Assembly: GCA_026397515.1 (NCBI GenBank) | Contig: JAPLUU010000011.1 | Coordinates: 25,150 to 67,372 of the forward strand | Length of the DNA stretch: 42,223 nt | Source: a candidate division SR1 bacterium | Lineage (GTDB): Bacteria > Patescibacteriota > Gracilibacteria > Absconditabacterales > Absconditicoccaceae | Reading direction: 5' to 3' | Shown here: positions 32,523-41,764 of the stretch, piece after piece | Numbering within the stretch: position 1 is the stretch's first letter | How the letters are laid out: the number at the start of each line of letters is the position of its first letter | Program-made: the position numbers and the translations under genes | Notes under the pieces: model-generated | Seen by the model: the letters and a program-made list of their open reading frames with translations, nothing else | Databases searched by the model: none | What the model was told of the DNA's origin: nothing

Positions 32523-33770
32523 TTAGTGAGTATGACCATGTGGTTTCTTAGTGTTTTTTTCTGTACCATCATTTTTTACTAATTTATCATAGAGTTTTTG
32601 CTCTACAGCCATATGCTCTGCTTGATTCCAATCTACGTCTAAATTAAGTAATCATGTAAACTTTTGCAATATGAAGAATTTTTCTAAACTTTCTTCTGCA
32701 GCTTTGGTTATATCTTCAAAGAATGCTTTTGCTTTTTCGTCTCCCATCTTTTTAAAGTATTCTTCCATCTTTTCTTTTCCTCCCAATCTATCTTCAAGAC
32801 TCTTGATTCTTGTCTTAAGTTCTTCGTTTATCAATGTCTGTGGAATAGCCACTTTCATAGATTTATTTCTCAATTTCTGTAGTACATCTTCTATTTTTTT
32901 GATAAGTTCTTGATCATATTTTTGATGTTCAATAGATTCGCTAATATATGCTACTAAATCTTCTTCTGTTTTTACTTTTGTATCATCTCCAAATAATTTT
33001 TTCATCATATCGGGAGTTAATTCTGGAAGTACGATTTTTTTGATATCTTTTATGGTAAGTTTGATTTTTTCTGCTTTAACATCAGTTTTTTTGTTGTGTA
33101 AAACAGCAGGAATTTTCTTTTCGTCATGAGCAATTTCTATAGTTTGATCTTTTTTCTTGTTGATGAATGTTTTGGGAAAAAATGGATCTTCCGCAAATTC
33201 TTGTTCACCAATATATGTATGTCCTGTATGTACTACTTTCCCTTCTTTGTCGAGGTATTCAAGCGTAATTTTTGAAATAGTATCAAGTTGGATAGTGTCT
33301 GCGTCTTGATAATCAGCATATTGTTTTTTTATATTCATCATAGTTCCTTCTATTTCTTCTTTTGTAGCAGTATTATCAATAGGCGTGCAAGATTGTTTTT
33401 CCCAATCATTACTTACTACTTCTACTTCTGGAAAGATATCGAGTTTGAGATTCATGATAGTATTTCCATCTTTTTCTTCTTGTTTGAGATCGTATGGTTC
33501 ACCGATAAATTTAAGGTCTGGTTGTTCTTTCAAAAGCTCTTGTAATCAGATATTAATCAACTTTTCATATGCTCCAATAGAAATATATTCTGGTTTAATG
33601 TTTTTTTCTACCATATCTAATGGTGCAGAGCCTTTTCTAAATCCTGGCGCTTCATAGTCTTTTTGAAATTCTTTTACCATAATAAGTTTAGCATTTTCAA
33701 ATTCTTTTGCTGGTATAGTGAGCTGAATGTCGTAATTGGCATGTGCTCATTTTTTTACGAGTTTTTCCAT
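32523..33770 (-). CDS. tig: Trigger factor
   Basis: A 415-residue ribosome-bound chaperone. The N-terminal ribosome-binding domain includes APGFRKGSAPLDMVEKN, corresponding to the GFRxGKxP signature (lacking the usual K at one place). The middle part has a trigger factor/FKBP-like region with TISKITLEYLDKEGKVVHTG and PELTPDMMKKLFGDDTKVKTEEDL, which starts the C-terminal substrate-cradle (TF_C) domain. The protein ends in a His-rich tail (KKPHGHTH). TGA-Gly at the start (KKGAHANYD) and twice elsewhere. The whole gene is longer than the uninterrupted frame suggests: both ends lie beyond TGA codons. A promoter of the TATAATTGAG type lies upstream at 33865. Confidence 0.93.
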
Positions 33771-33893: not shown

Positions 33894-33992
33894 ACATTGT
33901 CCTTCAAAAAATATTTTTTTTGATTGAAGGATGTATAGTTGCTATCACAACAATTCTTCATTACATCTCGGACTTATTCTGGTAGTAACTAT

Positions 33993-34048
33993 AATTGAGA
34001 CGTTGTCAAAATCCTCATTTTATTTCAGCTTTTTACTGCGTCTCAATT
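33993..34048. repeat. Hairpin related to the two-hairpin elements (copy 3, diverged)
   Basis: AATTGAGACG (33993-34002) pairs perfectly with CGTCTCAATT (34039-34048). As in copies 1 and 2 the base is GACGT on one side and CTGCGTC on the other, but the inner arm is different and only weakly paired, and the first hairpin is missing. Relation to the other two is therefore tentative. Confidence 0.5.
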
Positions 34049-34050
34049 AG

Positions 34051-34076
34051 AAAAACTCTCCTGAACACAGGAGAGT
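34051..34076 (-). terminator. Terminator of the T9SS cargo gene
   Basis: ACTCTCCTG pairs perfectly with CAGGAGAGT around a 4-nt loop and is followed on the minus strand by T. It lies 18 bp after the stop codon. Confidence 0.88.
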
Positions 34077-34093
34077 AAACGTTATTACTATTT

Positions 34094-35650
34094 TTATCGT
34101 TTGATAAACATTTTATTGGTTTTTATATTATTAGCTGTTATGCTAATTATATACGCTCCCTGAGATAGATTACTCACATTCAATACTTTCGTATTGTGCT
34201 CAGTGAGGAGTACCTGACCGAATATGTTCGATATTTCTATTTGGAAGTCTACCATTTCAATGTTTACATTCAATTCATCAGTAGCAGGATTAGGGAATAC
34301 CGAGAACGGTATAATCGATACTTCTTGTACTGAAGTTAAAATTGACTGTACCCAATTGCTTTTTACAATTACATTTGTCTTAGCGTTACAACTAGGAGCT
34401 TGAAATCCTACAAAATATTTTATGTAACTTAAATTGGGATTGATGTAATTGTACATGTATACATTCCCCGGTACAGAGGCAATTTGTGTTACCTGATTGG
34501 AGGCATTGATTCCGTACAAAAAGTAATCATTTACGATGAGACCGTAATATGCGGACCAATTGAATCCATAGGTATTTGTCCCTTGATCATATGCACTTAA
34601 TAAGGTGATTGTCGTATGATAGGGTGAAAGATTGGATTCATTACCACAGGTATCTACTATAGCTATTTTGTAACTATAACTTTGTGTTTGCGGTGCAGAA
34701 GTCATGTCTAAGAAATGACTGACGGTTTTGGGTACGGAACCGATTCTGTTCCATACGTTCAGTGACACTTCTTTGTAGATATGAACACTATCAGCATTGC
34801 CGGGTAAGTTGGTTGTCCAATTTGTGTTATTCTTCCATGTAAGTGTATCAAATTCTACATAGCAAATTGGTTCATCTGTAGACACTAATACAGTAACGTG
34901 AATGGTATCTCTACCACTGCAACCATTATTGTCAGTTAGTGAAACCCAATAATCTCCTGGTGTATTTACGGTGATAGTAGGAGTTGTAGCTCCTGTTGAC
35001 CACTGATATGAGGCAACATTTGTACTTCCTGGATCTAATACACTGTTTGAACCTAAACAAAACGTTTGATCTGATCCAAGATGAGGAGCATTAGGATTTG
35101 CTTGAGTAATGTTTTTGGTGTAGGTAACTACTCCGCAAGCGTTGGTGACTGTTACACTATAGGTGCCAGGGGTGGTAATGATAATTATTCTGTTTGTACC
35201 AATTATTATCCCATTGCGACGCCATTCATAGGTAGCAGCATGTCCGCTTGGACCTGGAGCATCGTTTTGTGCATTCAAAGTAAGACTAAACGTAGATGTA
35301 CAAATTGATGTGTCATTGACCATACAATCAGGTTCATAGGGTCCTGATGAGATGATGTAAATATAAACATTTTTAAATACGTCATCTGAAGAAAAGTTCC
35401 ATACTCCAGTATTGGCCAAAGTAATTATCACTGAGTCAGCACCAAATATATCTGGTCCTATAGGTGCATCCCAATTTATAGTACTTACTGCTATACTTGG
35501 TTTGTGGACGATTATCGTATCAATACCACAAAAGTAGTAATATTCGGCAGAAAACGTATTATTTAAGTATACGTGAACGTGAGACGCTGAGGTTATTCCA
35601 CAGCTTATGCTAAAGATTAGCAAAAAAAATGCAAAAATTTTTGTTTTCAT
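34094..35650 (-). CDS. Secreted protein with type IX secretion C-terminal sorting domain
   Basis: A 518-residue protein of Bacteroidota type. Signal peptide MKTKIFAFFLLIFSISCGITSAS; two Ig/PKD-like repeats ending PGTYSVTVTNACG and PGDYWVSLTDNNGCSGRDTI (residues about 115-255); an FN3-like region (about 260-430, KTVSHFLDMT... SYKIAIVDTCGNESNLSPYHTT); and the T9SS type A sorting domain from about residue 447: FSVFPNPATDELNV, IEISNIFGQVLL, LNVSNLSQGAYIISI, NKMFIKR. All Gly codons are GGN and no TGA occurs, unlike most neighbours. T9SS is known from Bacteroidota and allies, and no T9SS machinery is seen here. Recent transfer is likely; a chimeric assembly must be ruled out. Confidence 0.9.
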   Translation of the reverse strand: MKTKIFAFFLLIFSISCGITSASHVHVYLNNTFSAEYYYFCGIDTIIVHKPSIAVSTINWDAPIGPDIFGADSVIITLANTGVWNFSSDDVFKNVYIYIISSGPYEPDCMVNDTSICTSTFSLTLNAQNDAPGPSGHAATYEWRRNGIIIGTNRIIIITTPGTYSVTVTNACGVVTYTKNITQANPNAPHLGSDQTFCLGSNSVLDPGSTNVASYQWSTGATTPTITVNTPGDYWVSLTDNNGCSGRDTIHVTVLVSTDEPICYVEFDTLTWKNNTNWTTNLPGNADSVHIYKEVSLNVWNRIGSVPKTVSHFLDMTSAPQTQSYSYKIAIVDTCGNESNLSPYHTTITLLSAYDQGTNTYGFNWSAYYGLIVNDYFLYGINASNQVTQIASVPGNVYMYNYINPNLSYIKYFVGFQAPSCNAKTNVIVKSNWVQSILTSVQEVSIIPFSVFPNPATDELNVNIEMVDFQIEISNIFGQVLLTEHNTKVLNVSNLSQGAYIISITANNIKTNKMFIKR

Positions 35651-35769
35651 AAATGTTTGTTTTTATTAACTTTTTATTTTTATTTTTTATTTAACATAGA
35701 ATATAAATTTACTAGAAAAAATCAATCTAAACTAGTATTACTACCTAGAATTTTAGAAAATATAGTATT

Positions 35770-37218
35770 TTAGTTGTCTAATTGTATTCGTCATGATGCA
35801 GTACATCAGTAGAAATGATTGTCGGTTGATCTGTACCATATAGCTCAATATTTTATAGCAGTACATCCACCTAGATCTGGATTTGGTCTTGTTCTTATCA
35901 ATCATTCTACATCCAATGCAGTCTGTGGAAAATTATTATTTATTCCTACTCCACCTATTCATCACCCTATAGCATCCTCACTGAGAGGAACATTAATAAT
36001 AAAAGTACCTTTTTTAGCCGATGGAAAAATGATGTTCATATCACTATTCCATAAAAATGTATTAGAAGTATTTAAAATCTGTACACCATATCCTGCTGCA
36101 AAACTATGTGTAGAATTTTGTATTGTATTGTTTTGTCATCATGGGATTACTGAATAGCTTGAATCTCATGTTATGATGTTCATATGTCCTCATCAAACAA
36201 ATGATTTCTCTCCTGAATATACTTTATTTAGATATCATCAAACTATGTTTGAATAGTTTGATCCACTAATGATATTATTCTGTCATCAAACTATATTGGA
36301 ATAATCTCCATATACTTTATTTGCTATATCACTAAATCATCCTCATCAGATAAATGATCATGTTCCAGTAATTTTATTTACTCCTCCTCATCAGATGAAT
36401 GAATAATTTCATGTGATAGTGTTTTTATCTCATCATCAAATTATTGATTCATTACCTGTGATAGTATTTCCCGATCATCATCAGATAGTTGAATAACTAC
36501 CCGTAATAGTATTGCTATAATTTCCTGCTATAAAATTTCCTACTACTTGTAAATCAGCTTTTGGTATATATGTTCATATACCTACCAATCCTAATGGAGT
36601 GATAGCAATGTCTACTCATGAACCTACTTTTCCTATATAAAATACATCATAAGGACTACTATATGCTCATAAAGCTCGTGTTCTTGTGGTATTTTGAAAA
36701 TTGATATTTGCTGCACTTCCTCAGCTACTTTCTTGGAGATATAATTCTGTTTGTCCTGAACTGGTGATATGGAGTTTACCACTCATATTAGGAGTTCCGA
36801 TACCGATATTTCCCGCATTTACATTATAAATATCACTTCCTGCTCCTGTCCAATATCCATCTCCTGTTCATCCGATTCCTCCACCTCATGACGTTACTAG
36901 ACCTTGGCTTAGGACGTAAATAATATTACCATTATTATCTATTCATAAAACCTTTCATGAAAAACTTGTCTGTGGAGTCAAAATAGAAGGATCGATAAAT
37001 ATCCCTCATGAAGACATTTCTATCAGTGGAGCACTATCTGTTCCTGATTCTGTAATACTTATTTTTGCTATCGTCTGCCATGCATTATTTATAGTCGATG
37101 GTATCTCTATTTGTGCCAATGTAATGACTGATGCAAATCCTAGTACTATCGTGAAAAATAAGAGAATAAGATTCTTTATTGAAAGATCATTTGATCAAAT
37201 TCTATGAACGTTAAACAT
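35770..37218 (-). CDS. Secreted fibre-like repeat protein, very rich in UGA-Gly
   Basis: A 482-residue surface protein. An N-terminal signal/anchor (NLILLFFTIVLGFASVITLAQ, residues about 16-36) is followed by a tail-fibre-like region (IPSTINNAWQTIAKISITESG, GNIGIGTPNMSGKLHI) and, from about 235 to 365, a repeated motif of about 15 residues, G-N-T-I-T-G-N-Y-S-x-I-G-G-G, as in beta-solenoid fibre proteins and trimeric autotransporter head-like repeats. It ends with a small domain containing GGCTAIKYGAIWYRSTDNHFYGCTASG. I count about 38 TGA codons, including TGA-TGA-TGA runs. It may be an adhesin for host contact (inference). It shares its promoter and leader start with pilB. The T9SS cargo gene is next downstream. 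Confidence 0.85.
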
Positions 37219-37292
37219 GTGAATAAACGTAAAAAGTAAAGTTTTTAGTGTATGAATCTTTATAAAAAGATTCGAGTTTTTATTGCATCTCA

Positions 37293-37321
37293 ATTATATC
37301 TTAAAACACGAAAAAATGCAA
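37293..37321 (-). promoter_or_regulatory. Sigma-70 promoter of the fibre gene
   Basis: TTGCAT and TATAAT with a 17-nt spacer on the minus strand, about 75 bp before the ATG. From the -10 onward 28 nt match the pilB promoter with three differences. The rest of the leader has a hairpin, GAATCTTT pairing with AAAGATTC at 37255-37274. Confidence 0.75.
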
Positions 37322-37493: not shown

Positions 37494-39893
37494 ATGCCAA
37501 AGACACCCGTTAAACCAGTTGCAAAAAAAACTGTAGTAAAAGCAGTAGCAAAAGCTAAAGCACCTTCTAAAGTAAAAGAAGATAAACTTTCTGTCGTTAA
37601 AGAAAAAGATACGAGCACCAAAGTACTCAAAGCTGATGAGCTTATGGGTGGATGAGGTGGTTTTTTGTCATGATTGGGATTCAAAAAAGAAGAAAAAACA
37701 GTCAAACAAAAAGAGGAAGAAAAACGTAAGGAAGAAGAACAGGAAGAAAGTATTATTTTGGAAAAACCTAGACGTGGTGCATCATTTTCTTTTGATAAAG
37801 TTGAAGCTCCTACGACTCGTATAGTAGGAAGAAGTGATGATTCTTTTGCTGGTAGACCAGCGAGACCAGCATATTCTCCTAGTAAACCTACTACTCCTCA
37901 AGTAGTGAGACCTAGAAATACAGCGCCTCAACATGGAGGTAAACAGTTTCCTGTAAGGACATGATATCAATGATCTAAACCTAATTTTATCCAAGGTAAG
38001 CCTCAACATTGATGAGCTAACCAACAACATAGGCCGTTTAATAAACCGGTATTCCAGCCAGCGAAGCCAGCTGTACCCTATGTACCAAAAGTACAAAAAA
38101 TTGCTACGACTTCAGCAAATTTGGTTAAAAAAATCGAAATATATATCGATGACAAAATTACCGTAAAAGAATTCTCTGAAAAAATGGGAGTACCATTACC
38201 AGAACTTATGAAAAAACTTATTCAAAATAAGATTATGACCTCTATCACGGCTTCCTTAGATTTTGATACTGCGGCATTGATAGCATCAGAATTTAATATT
38301 ATTGTAAAAAGACATGAAAATAAGGTAACTGTCCAGACATTTATGAGCTGAGACTTACAAGCTATTCTTGATATGGATAAAGGCGCTGAACATTTACTTC
38401 CAAGACCACCTATTGTTACCGTCATGGGACATGTAGATCATGGAAAGACTTCGTTACTTGATTACCTCAGAAAAACTGTTGTAGCTGAAGGTGAAGCGTG
38501 AGGAATCACCCAATCTATCTGAGCTTCAGTCGTAGAATATAATGGTAAAAAAATATGTTTTATCGATACTCCAGGACATGAATTGTTTACCAGTCTTAGA
38601 GCTAGATGAGCTAAACTGACAAATATAGCGATTATCGTAGTAGCAGCTGATGATAGTGTGATGCCGCAAACTATTGAATCTATCTGACATGCTAAAGAAT
38701 CTGGTGTGCCTATTATTATTGCTATTACCAAGATTGATAAACCAGGAAAAAATCTCGAAACGATCAAACAAGATCTCGCCAAATACTGACTTATTCCAGA
38801 AGATTGGTGAGGTGATACACCTATTATTTGAATTTCATCCAAGACAGGACAAGGAATACCAGAGCTTCTCGAAGCGGTTCTTCTTCAGACTGAAATGCTT
38901 GATCTTAAATATAATCCTGACAGATCAGCAGTATGAGTTGTTGTAGATGCACACAAAGATCCAAAACAAGGAGTTGTTTCTACTATTATCGTAATGACAG
39001 GAACACTTAAAATCTGAGATACTATCGTTGCGTACAATACCACCGGAAAAATCAGAAGAATGCAAAATCGAAAAGGACAAAGTATTACCAAAGCAACATG
39101 ATGAGATCCTATACAAGTACTTGGTATTACCAGTTTACCAGATCCAGGTCGTATCGTTGAAGTAGTTAAAAACGAAAAAGAAGCACAAGAAAAAATATCA
39201 CTTATCCAAGAGCAAGTCAGTAAAACAGCTGATGATTCTGTGGTGAAACAATTTATTTCACAGATACAGGCAAATGTATTCTGAGCAGAACTCAAACTTA
39301 TTTTGAAGTCTGATGGATCAAGTAGTTTGGAAGCACTTCAACAAGCAGTCGCTGCAATACAATTACCAAAGAATGTAACTATGAGAGTTATCCAAGCAAG
39401 TGTAGGACATTTCACTGAATCTGATCTTTCTCTCGCACAAGCATCATGAGCATTGCTTTTGGGATTCAACATCTCTATGAACGCTCTTCTCAAAAAGAAA
39501 GCTGACTCTATGAAAATAGAAATGAAAAATTTTGATATTATCTATGAACTTGTTGATTACTTAGATAAATTACTTCTTGGGATGGTTGAGATCGAACAAC
39601 ATGAAGTGATGTTTGCTAAGCTTGAAGTACAAGGAATCTTCTTTACAAAAAATAAAGATATGACCATTTGAGGAAAAGTTACTTTTGGAAAACTCCATGG
39701 TAAGCCAAAATTCACGGTATTGAGAGGTGAAGATATCCTCTGTACCGGTAATGTAGTTTCTCTTCACAAAAATAAAGATGAAGTCAAAGAAGTTGGTGAA
39801 GGAGATCAATGTGGAATTAAAGTAACCACAGGAAAGAAAATAGAAATCTGAGATATTATAGAATTCTTTGAAATGCAAGACAAACCAGACTAG
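37494..39893 (+). CDS. infB: Translation initiation factor IF-2
   Basis: A 799-residue GTPase that brings initiator tRNA to the ribosome. The N-terminal 220 residues are a charged, Lys/Pro/Gln-rich linker. IF2_N follows ([21 protein letters not shown]). The G domain has G1 [10 protein letters not shown]2 GEAGGITQSIGAS (two Gly as TGA at 38499-38501 and 38520-38522), G3 DTPGHE, G4 TKID (family NKID) and G5 SSKTGQG. Domains II-IV end with GDQCGIKV...[14 protein letters not shown]. More than a dozen TGA codons all fall on family Gly, and read with stops the gene would break into many pieces. The end at TAG 39891-39893 precedes the DUF559 cassette. Confidence 0.97.
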
Positions 39894-41011: not shown

Positions 41012-41647
41012 CTAATAGAATCTGATTCCTATAGCTAATGCTGTTTCTTTTGAATGAATTTTTATGCGATTTTCTTCCACGAATTCTCCAAAAACAACCT
41101 CTCCTGTCATCATAGATTCAATAGGAAAGAGATTTTTACATAAGATTGTATGAAATTTAAATCTTTCCGGACTTTTCTTATCTTTTAGTAGTAATTCTCC
41201 CTTAAATTCTCCTTTTTTTACCATGTTCGCAAATAACGGGAATTCTTGATCGCATATATTACCATCATCTTCAGAAGTGATATTCTGGGTTACATAATAT
41301 TCTTTAGCTTTTTCGATAAAATCTGTTTTGCTAATTTCAATTTTCCAAAATTTAGTTTCTGGAATAATAATGGTTAGGTAGCATTCTTCGATTTCCCCTT
41401 TCGTATAATAGAAACCAGTACATGGAATCTTTTTTTCTCCTATTTTCACTACTCCTGCGAATGAAATCATTTCTTCTCCTTCTTTATAGAAAATCTGATT
41501 CCGTGTTTCCAGACACAGTTTAGCTGGTAGCATTTCTCCTTCGTATTCTACAGTGATATCGAGAGCAAAAGATAGTGTACTTCTACTGAGTAAAGCAATC
41601 ATCAGTCTTATTTTCAAGTCTGGTGCAATAATTCTTTGTGTTTTCAT
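41012..41647 (-). CDS. Unrecognised protein between the 37-bp repeats
   Basis: A 211-residue protein from ATG 41647 (MKTQRIIAPDLKIRLMIALLSRS); the frame is open for 23 more codons upstream, but the AT-rich start there looks like leader. No membrane span or signal peptide is clear. The sequence is beta-rich with alternating hydrophobic residues (TVEYEGEMLPAKLCLETRN, GEIEECYLTIIIPETKFWKIEI) and ends ETALAIGIRFY. Cys pairs occur but no motif. No TGA in frame. The exact 37-bp copies on both sides suggest that it arrived by an insertion. Confidence 0.7.
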   Translation of the reverse strand: MKTQRIIAPDLKIRLMIALLSRSTLSFALDITVEYEGEMLPAKLCLETRNQIFYKEGEEMISFAGVVKIGEKKIPCTGFYYTKGEIEECYLTIIIPETKFWKIEISKTDFIEKAKEYYVTQNITSEDDGNICDQEFPLFANMVKKGEFKGELLLKDKKSPERFKFHTILCKNLFPIESMMTGEVVFGEFVEENRIKIHSKETALAIGIRFY

Positions 41648-41764
41648 GATTTTTTTGTTTAGATATTTTCTTATATTTATTTTATTATATAAGTCAAGTT
41701 TTGTTACGAAAGTCATTGAATAGTTTTAATACTTTAAAAACAGATATAAAATGGATGAAATAAA

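Follow-up and report, generated by a model that had tools for sequence, protein, structure and literature searches.

In a bacterial lineage that reads UGA as glycine, genes for proteins with a T9SS sorting domain have kept in-frame TGA out of their coding sequences over the long term, and the class of genes to which they belong carries host-like translation-start signals of the Bacteroidota type. This suggests that the UGA-free genes with Bacteroidota ribosome signals give rise to messages that a Bacteroidota host cell, rather than the parasite, would translate and export. The gene from which the analysis started lies in a window of 42,223 nucleotides, the whole stretch of DNA that was analysed (contig JAPLUU010000011.1 of assembly GCA_026397515.1, a candidate division SR1 bacterium).

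A T9SS-cargo-like gene beside a fibre gene

A preliminary description of this DNA had reported a run of 518 codons without TGA at 34094-35650, and exactly these coordinates were confirmed, on the minus strand, with a frame that is open under both table 11 and table 25 (Table 1). The complete T9SS type A sorting domain that had been described was recovered with two models, Por_Secre_tail PF18962 (46.9 bits, cut-off 27, profile positions 1-75 of 75) and TIGR04183 (35.5 bits, cut-off 23), and it combines scores above the curated cut-off with a C-terminal position (residues 451-516 of 518). The claim of a signal peptide and PKD/Ig-like repeats stood in part: the hydrophobic N-terminus, a helix at residues 2-15 in the AlphaFold model, is compatible with a Sec signal peptide, and Ig_7 (186-255) and PKD matches were found, although these are weak and under their respective cut-offs. 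The Ig_7/PKD-like domain has 45-53% identity with Bacteroidota repeats, and the model is an all-beta multi-domain chain with a mean pLDDT of 75. The protein is of Bacteroidota type, as had been proposed, but with 30 Gly in 518 residues it is not the Gly-rich protein that it was said to be.

Table 1. Features of the T9SS-cargo-like gene and its surroundings, in window coordinates
Feature	Position	Strand	Details
T9SS-cargo-like protein gene	34094..35650	-	518 aa, 30 Gly codons, 0 TGA, ATG to TAA
T9SS type A C-terminal sorting domain	34103..34300	-	residues 451-516; PF18962 and TIGR04183
Ig_7/PKD-like domain	34886..35095	-	residues 186-255; below Pfam cut-off
Putative signal peptide	35585..35650	-	residues 1 to about 22; inferred from hydrophobic N-terminus
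A-rich, SD-less 5' leader, Bacteroidota type	35651..35697	-	67% A in last 30 nt
Sigma70-like promoter	35698..35725	-	-35 TTGATT (35720-35725), -10 TATTCT (35698-35703)
Intrinsic terminator	34051..34076	-	directly past stop: ACTCTCCTG-TGTT-CAGGAGAGT-TTTT
Fibre gene	35770..37293	-	38 TGA codons; parasite's own code
Trigger factor	32523..33770	-	3 TGA; conserved neighbour
IF-2	37494..39893	+	22 TGA; conserved neighbour
Second TGA-free class gene in window	41012..41716	-	A-rich leader 0.67 at ATG 41647; stop TAG

The orthologues of the gene in genomes G007 and G004 have the promoter TTGACT-N17-TATACT. Beyond the terminator there is an inverted repeat, AATTGAGACG...CGTCTCAATT (window 33939-34050), with few copies in the genome; AATTGAGACG near 34000 was considered as a mark of the gene class and rejected, having only 2-4 copies. 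The adjoining fibre gene (35770-37293), credited earlier with about 38 TGA codons, was counted and has that number. It adjoins the T9SS gene in four species, and fibre-like homologues lie close to paralogous T9SS genes at L057, L058 and L009. A sorting-domain-like stretch was also seen at L009:14493-15122 (contig C5 of G000, the source genome of the window), in a frame of 209 aa that contains 8 TGA and lacks a signal peptide. The product of the second TGA-free gene in the window (41012-41716) matched no Pfam family.

Under the genome's beta-binomial the chance of finding no TGA at 30 Gly is about 0.01, which is modestly unusual for a single gene. The lack of TGA in one gene was rejected as stand-alone evidence; DnaN in the same window is also without TGA. 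The native TGA-free genes DnaN, rplY and RlmE have orthologues that bear TGA.

Sorting-domain genes across the family

Among the 49 genomes of the family, 31 have at least one gene with a T9SS sorting domain, as do 15 of 239 genomes from other families of the same taxonomic class; in G000 there are four matches, on three contigs. The earlier remark that no T9SS machinery is visible held in a search that covered SprA, the T9SS translocon, which was found in 0 of the 49 family genomes, with 2400 bits in a positive control genome. Among the 1,992 Gly codons of the 39 T9SS genes none is an internal TGA, for which log10 P is about -357 if the rate of the neighbours is assumed, and 15-67% of the Gly codons in the genes around each of them are written TGA, contaminant contigs of G010 being left out. 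It is because of this family-wide pattern, and not of the gene at 34094-35650 alone, that the absence of TGA is beyond chance.

Left out of the T9SS set were L041 of G001, a false match, and two matches of G010 on probable contaminant contigs. These contigs (L071 and L072; C55 and C44) are nearly TGA-free throughout and are probably Bacteroidota contamination of the MAG. One T9SS protein is an exception to the rule: that at L040:9695-10657 in the single-contig genome G001 has 3 TGA, one of them in the signal peptide, and it may be made in the parasite. A syntenic trio of adjacent TGA-free genes, for products of 256, about 490 and about 700 aa, was seen in G006, G004, G003 and G007 (L047, L061, L067 and L078), with the sorting domain on the last gene and up to 88 Gly without TGA.

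A chimeric contig, one of the two origins first suggested for the gene, or contamination would agree with the state of the source assembly (1.21 Mb in 23 contigs, a MAG rated 4% contaminated) and with the two foreign-looking T9SS contigs of G010. However, in four independent genomes its neighbours do not differ, TGA-rich genes flank it on both sides, similar genes are found in the single-contig genome G042, and the gene class is family-wide, all of which makes this explanation hardly credible.

Long residence without TGA

In four species (G000, G007, G004 and G003) the gene, P0001, has trigger factor on one side and the fibre gene on the other and contains 0 TGA; the BLAST identities are 64, 53 and 32% (range of protein identity 32-66%). 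At the same loci the other neighbours have 60-93% identity and the fibre 42-51%. The identities of the T9SS protein follow the same order across species as those of its neighbours but are lower than most of them, which leaves room for replacement by related alleles. Another T9SS family is syntenic in further species, together with two TGA-free companion genes, and a third is syntenic between G042 and G044.

Conserved Gly columns flip between GGN and TGA at a rate of 11-37% in the neighbours and never in the T9SS genes. Over six pairs of loci, the synonymous Gly changes in the T9SS class were 228 between GGN codons and 0 with TGA, versus 216 without and 299 with TGA in the neighbours (p 6e-66), and a Gly gained in one species was encoded by TGA in 0 of 200 cases versus 124 of 361 (p 3e-28). 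The T9SS orthologues have a dS of about 1.8, near saturation, and a dN/dS of about 0.15. The depletion is restricted to frame 0, where the T9SS class has 0.0 TGA per 1,000 codons, with 20.5 and 33.5 in the other frames; native genes have 27.2, 20.7 and 38.1 in the three frames. The syntenic divergence and the turnover of Gly codons mean that there was ample time for codon change while TGA was kept out, and in the old genes of the class TGA is excluded by selection.

These results bear on the other origin first suggested, a single acquisition from a Bacteroidota donor that happened too recently for codons to change. The Bacteroidota type of the protein, the absence of TGA and a GC content of up to 40% inside the gene, in surroundings of about 30%, are what such a transfer would leave. 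Against it are the synteny in four species and the dS reached with no TGA gained meanwhile. Apart from TGA, the codon usage of the T9SS genes also looks parasite-like, with an r of 0.96 for the genome's own genes, 0.86 for EF-Tu/enolase and 0.82 for a Bacteroidota sample without low-GC Bacteroidota, and a search of 395 Bacteroidota genomes gave single-domain matches only (best 66 bits) and no near homologue. We therefore regard a single recent transfer as very improbable.

Perhaps, then, these genes have been replaced or gained again and again, through repeated uptake from Bacteroidota neighbours and expression in the parasite, and are free of TGA only because each copy is young. The group is likely to be naturally competent, with type IV pili and ComEC in Vampirococcus (PMC8080830), the proteins are of Bacteroidota type, and the A-rich leaders and TGA stops described below would accompany incoming DNA. 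However, the same locus is occupied in several species with identities ordered like those of the neighbours, and beyond single domains the 395 Bacteroidota genomes hold no homologue, nor did phages or plasmids give a noteworthy match. Codon usage appears ameliorated except for TGA, and the promoter common to these genes is not of Bacteroidota type. Continual replacement thus appears unlikely, if worth some weight.

A class of TGA-free genes with host-like start signals

A survey of about 1.16 Mb of G000, read in stretches, gave 59 genes with at least 10 Gly and no TGA, and by leader and open frame the class comprises about 50 genes per genome. TGA-free genes with a native leader, where they have orthologues, mostly have TGA-bearing ones; those with an A-rich leader have orthologues that are TGA-free and A-rich too, syntenic places included. 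The leaders of the class have no SD, and in genomes other than G000 they show peaks of A at -13 to -11, -6 and -3, with 72, 74, 71, 81 and 61% A at -13, -12, -11, -6 and -3 versus 32, 35, 43, 36 and 42% outside the class. The pattern matches the determinants of initiation in F. johnsoniae, where, as in Bacteroidetes initiation, A is found at -3, -6, -12 and -13 (PMC6847099).

The class promoter is sigma70-like, with the consensus aTTGACwTTt-N6-AAATAtaTATA, and TTGAC is present in 24 of 38 cases versus 2.5 expected. When the matrix trained on G000 was applied to another genus, it matched 9 of 15 TGA-free genes versus 21 of 252 (p 1e-7); promoter matches occur at TGA-bearing genes as well (15 of 38 in G000). 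The motif used by the RNA polymerase of Bacteroidetes is TTTG/TANNTTTG, and in these bacteria E. coli genes fail to be expressed (PMC6847099); this motif was not enriched upstream of the class genes. An own terminator follows 27 of 53 class genes versus 71 of 690 native genes, and a search of the class for a common 3' export element found only T-rich terminator tails.

Members of the class with a Pfam match include GH16 with a sorting domain, flotillin, arginase, deoxyhypusine synthase, SAICAR synthetase, thymidylate synthase and kinase, radical SAM, PhoH-PIN, GNAT and a kinase. Many members are enzymes, such as thyA, purC, tmk and arginase, that could instead work in the parasite. The TGA-free nucleotide synthesis genes purC, thyA and tmk (in G000 at L150:3321-4322, L122:1506-2492 and L158:17419-18012) resemble host-boosting phage genes.

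Class members also differ from native genes in conservation, with reciprocal best matches in the sampled part of G006 for 6 of 59 class genes versus 160 of 671 native genes, a lower conservation that would suit continual replacement. For many members the sampled relatives offer no orthologue, so some of the class may have arrived by recent transfer. PhoH-PIN, however, occurs in five genera (17 genomes) with no internal TGA in any match, and its copies, up to 86% alike within one genus, are mostly nearer to one another than to 198 Bacteroidota genomes, which speaks against replacement. A locus at 40% identity between L124:2418-5765 (G000 C14) and G006 C5:12506 (L190) has 13 TGA among 88 Gly and an A-poor leader in the former genome and 0 of 90 in the latter, a possible switch between two modes of expression.

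TGA as a stop codon of the class

Four T9SS genes with a single TGA were inspected. In three of them (L048, L073 and L076) the TGA exactly ends the sorting domain (..KIIVK, ..KLIKL and ..KITKF), and in the fourth it lies upstream of the true start. TGA stops, few in number, are found in further class members as well. Where a gene has a single TGA, it falls in the last tenth in 7 of 10 genes with an A-rich leader versus 13 of 103 others, in which it is evenly spread. Standard-code ORFs that end in TGA have a read-through of at most 30 codons in 5 of 6 cases at a leader A of at least 0.65 and in 34 of 222 at a leader A below 0.45. No RF2 (release factor 2) scored above the cut-off in any of the 49 genomes, as compared with 10 of 14 controls, and a tRNA with a UCA anticodon is present in G000; the parasite should therefore read the TGA stops of the class as glycine.

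This weighs against an avoidance of TGA for reasons internal to the parasite, by which the genes would form an expression class (of a dispersal stage, for example) with scarce tRNA-Gly(UCA), and the sorting domain would be a relic or belong to an unknown exporter. Such an explanation would suit the promoter common to the class, and the highly expressed EF-Tu and enolase of G042 are TGA-free too. However, TGA stops would be senseless without RF2, the codon usage of the T9SS genes is unlike that of EF-Tu/enolase, and the Bacteroidota leaders and export signals are left unexplained. We find internal avoidance decidedly unlikely.

A proposed model of translation by the host

The explanation that we favour, and consider probable, is that the gene is an old resident of the UGA=Gly lineage that has been kept readable in the standard code, is transcribed by the parasite, and is translated and exported by a Bacteroidota host. 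The aside in the preliminary description that a host's machinery may be used appears right as part of this explanation. The parasite would transcribe the class genes from their sigma70-like promoters, and the transcripts (or, less likely, DNA) would enter the attached Bacteroidota host cell. Messenger RNA is preferred here because the promoters are parasite-like; transfer of DNA would need promoters of the other cell, and those found are sigma70-like. Host ribosomes would then translate the messages, which hold no internal UGA, by way of the Bacteroidota-type leaders. The 518-aa protein would be placed by the host's Sec and T9SS on the host surface, where its Ig-like domains may serve in adhesion or as a receptor, with the TGA-rich fibre of the adjoining gene as a possible partner. 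We infer the delivery, the identity of the host and the role as surface adhesin or receptor, and the pairing of T9SS protein and fibre as receptor and ligand is a conjecture from gene adjacency.

Where relevant, members of the class have Bacteroidota signal peptides, lipoprotein signals or T9SS sorting domains, and a TraG/VirB4-like ATPase is encoded in G000. Vampirococcus, a relative, attaches to host cells and empties them (PMC8080830). A more specific version, which we propose only tentatively and with some doubt, is that a recoded parasite delivers mRNA into a bacterial host of another phylum, whose T9SS displays the protein as docking partner of the fibre; the regulon would consist of standard-code mRNAs with a parasite promoter, host ribosome signals and an own terminator.

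If this were true, some of the genes of a bacterium would be written in its host's genetic code, and the contrast between the codes would reveal at once the parasite genes that act inside the host. Uncultured UGA=Gly Patescibacteria would gain a catalogue of their effectors and a predicted host (T9SS-bearing Bacteroidota), and the transfer of functional mRNA or DNA across bacterial phyla would become a mechanism open to testing. Even without delivery, we know of no earlier case in which one promoter class selectively keeps out a reassigned codon.

Comparison with known systems

A literature search found no paper joining this lineage with T9SS. The protein is like T9SS type A cargo of Bacteroidota (PF18962/TIGR04183) in its putative signal peptide, its Ig/PKD-like repeats and a sorting domain at the very end. 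Unlike such cargo, it is encoded in a UGA=Gly genome without SprA, and its full-length relatives were found only in its own lineage. Genes without in-frame TGA, readable in both codes, are also known from the TGA-avoiding phages of Absconditabacteria/Gracilibacteria (Liu et al. 2023, PMC10746230), but those are phage genomes, whereas here individual genes of the chromosome are concerned, which occupy conserved loci among TGA-rich genes and have a promoter class of their own.

The best fold matches in the PDB were to GhpA, the grappling hook protein of Aureispira, a Bacteroidota surface protein that is likewise a string of Ig-like beta domains; with a TM of about 0.2 over the whole chain and 14-17% identity, this is a general repeat resemblance only.

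The T-DNA of Agrobacterium consists of genes that a bacterium keeps equipped with another cell's expression signals and that are expressed in that cell, and there host promoters are used and DNA is moved between kingdoms. In our case the promoters resemble those of the parasite, with a bacterium as the presumed host. Tir is a planted receptor that the attacker puts on the host surface, delivered as protein; the same planting of a receptor is proposed here, with a receptor role that is conjectured from the adjacency of the fibre gene.
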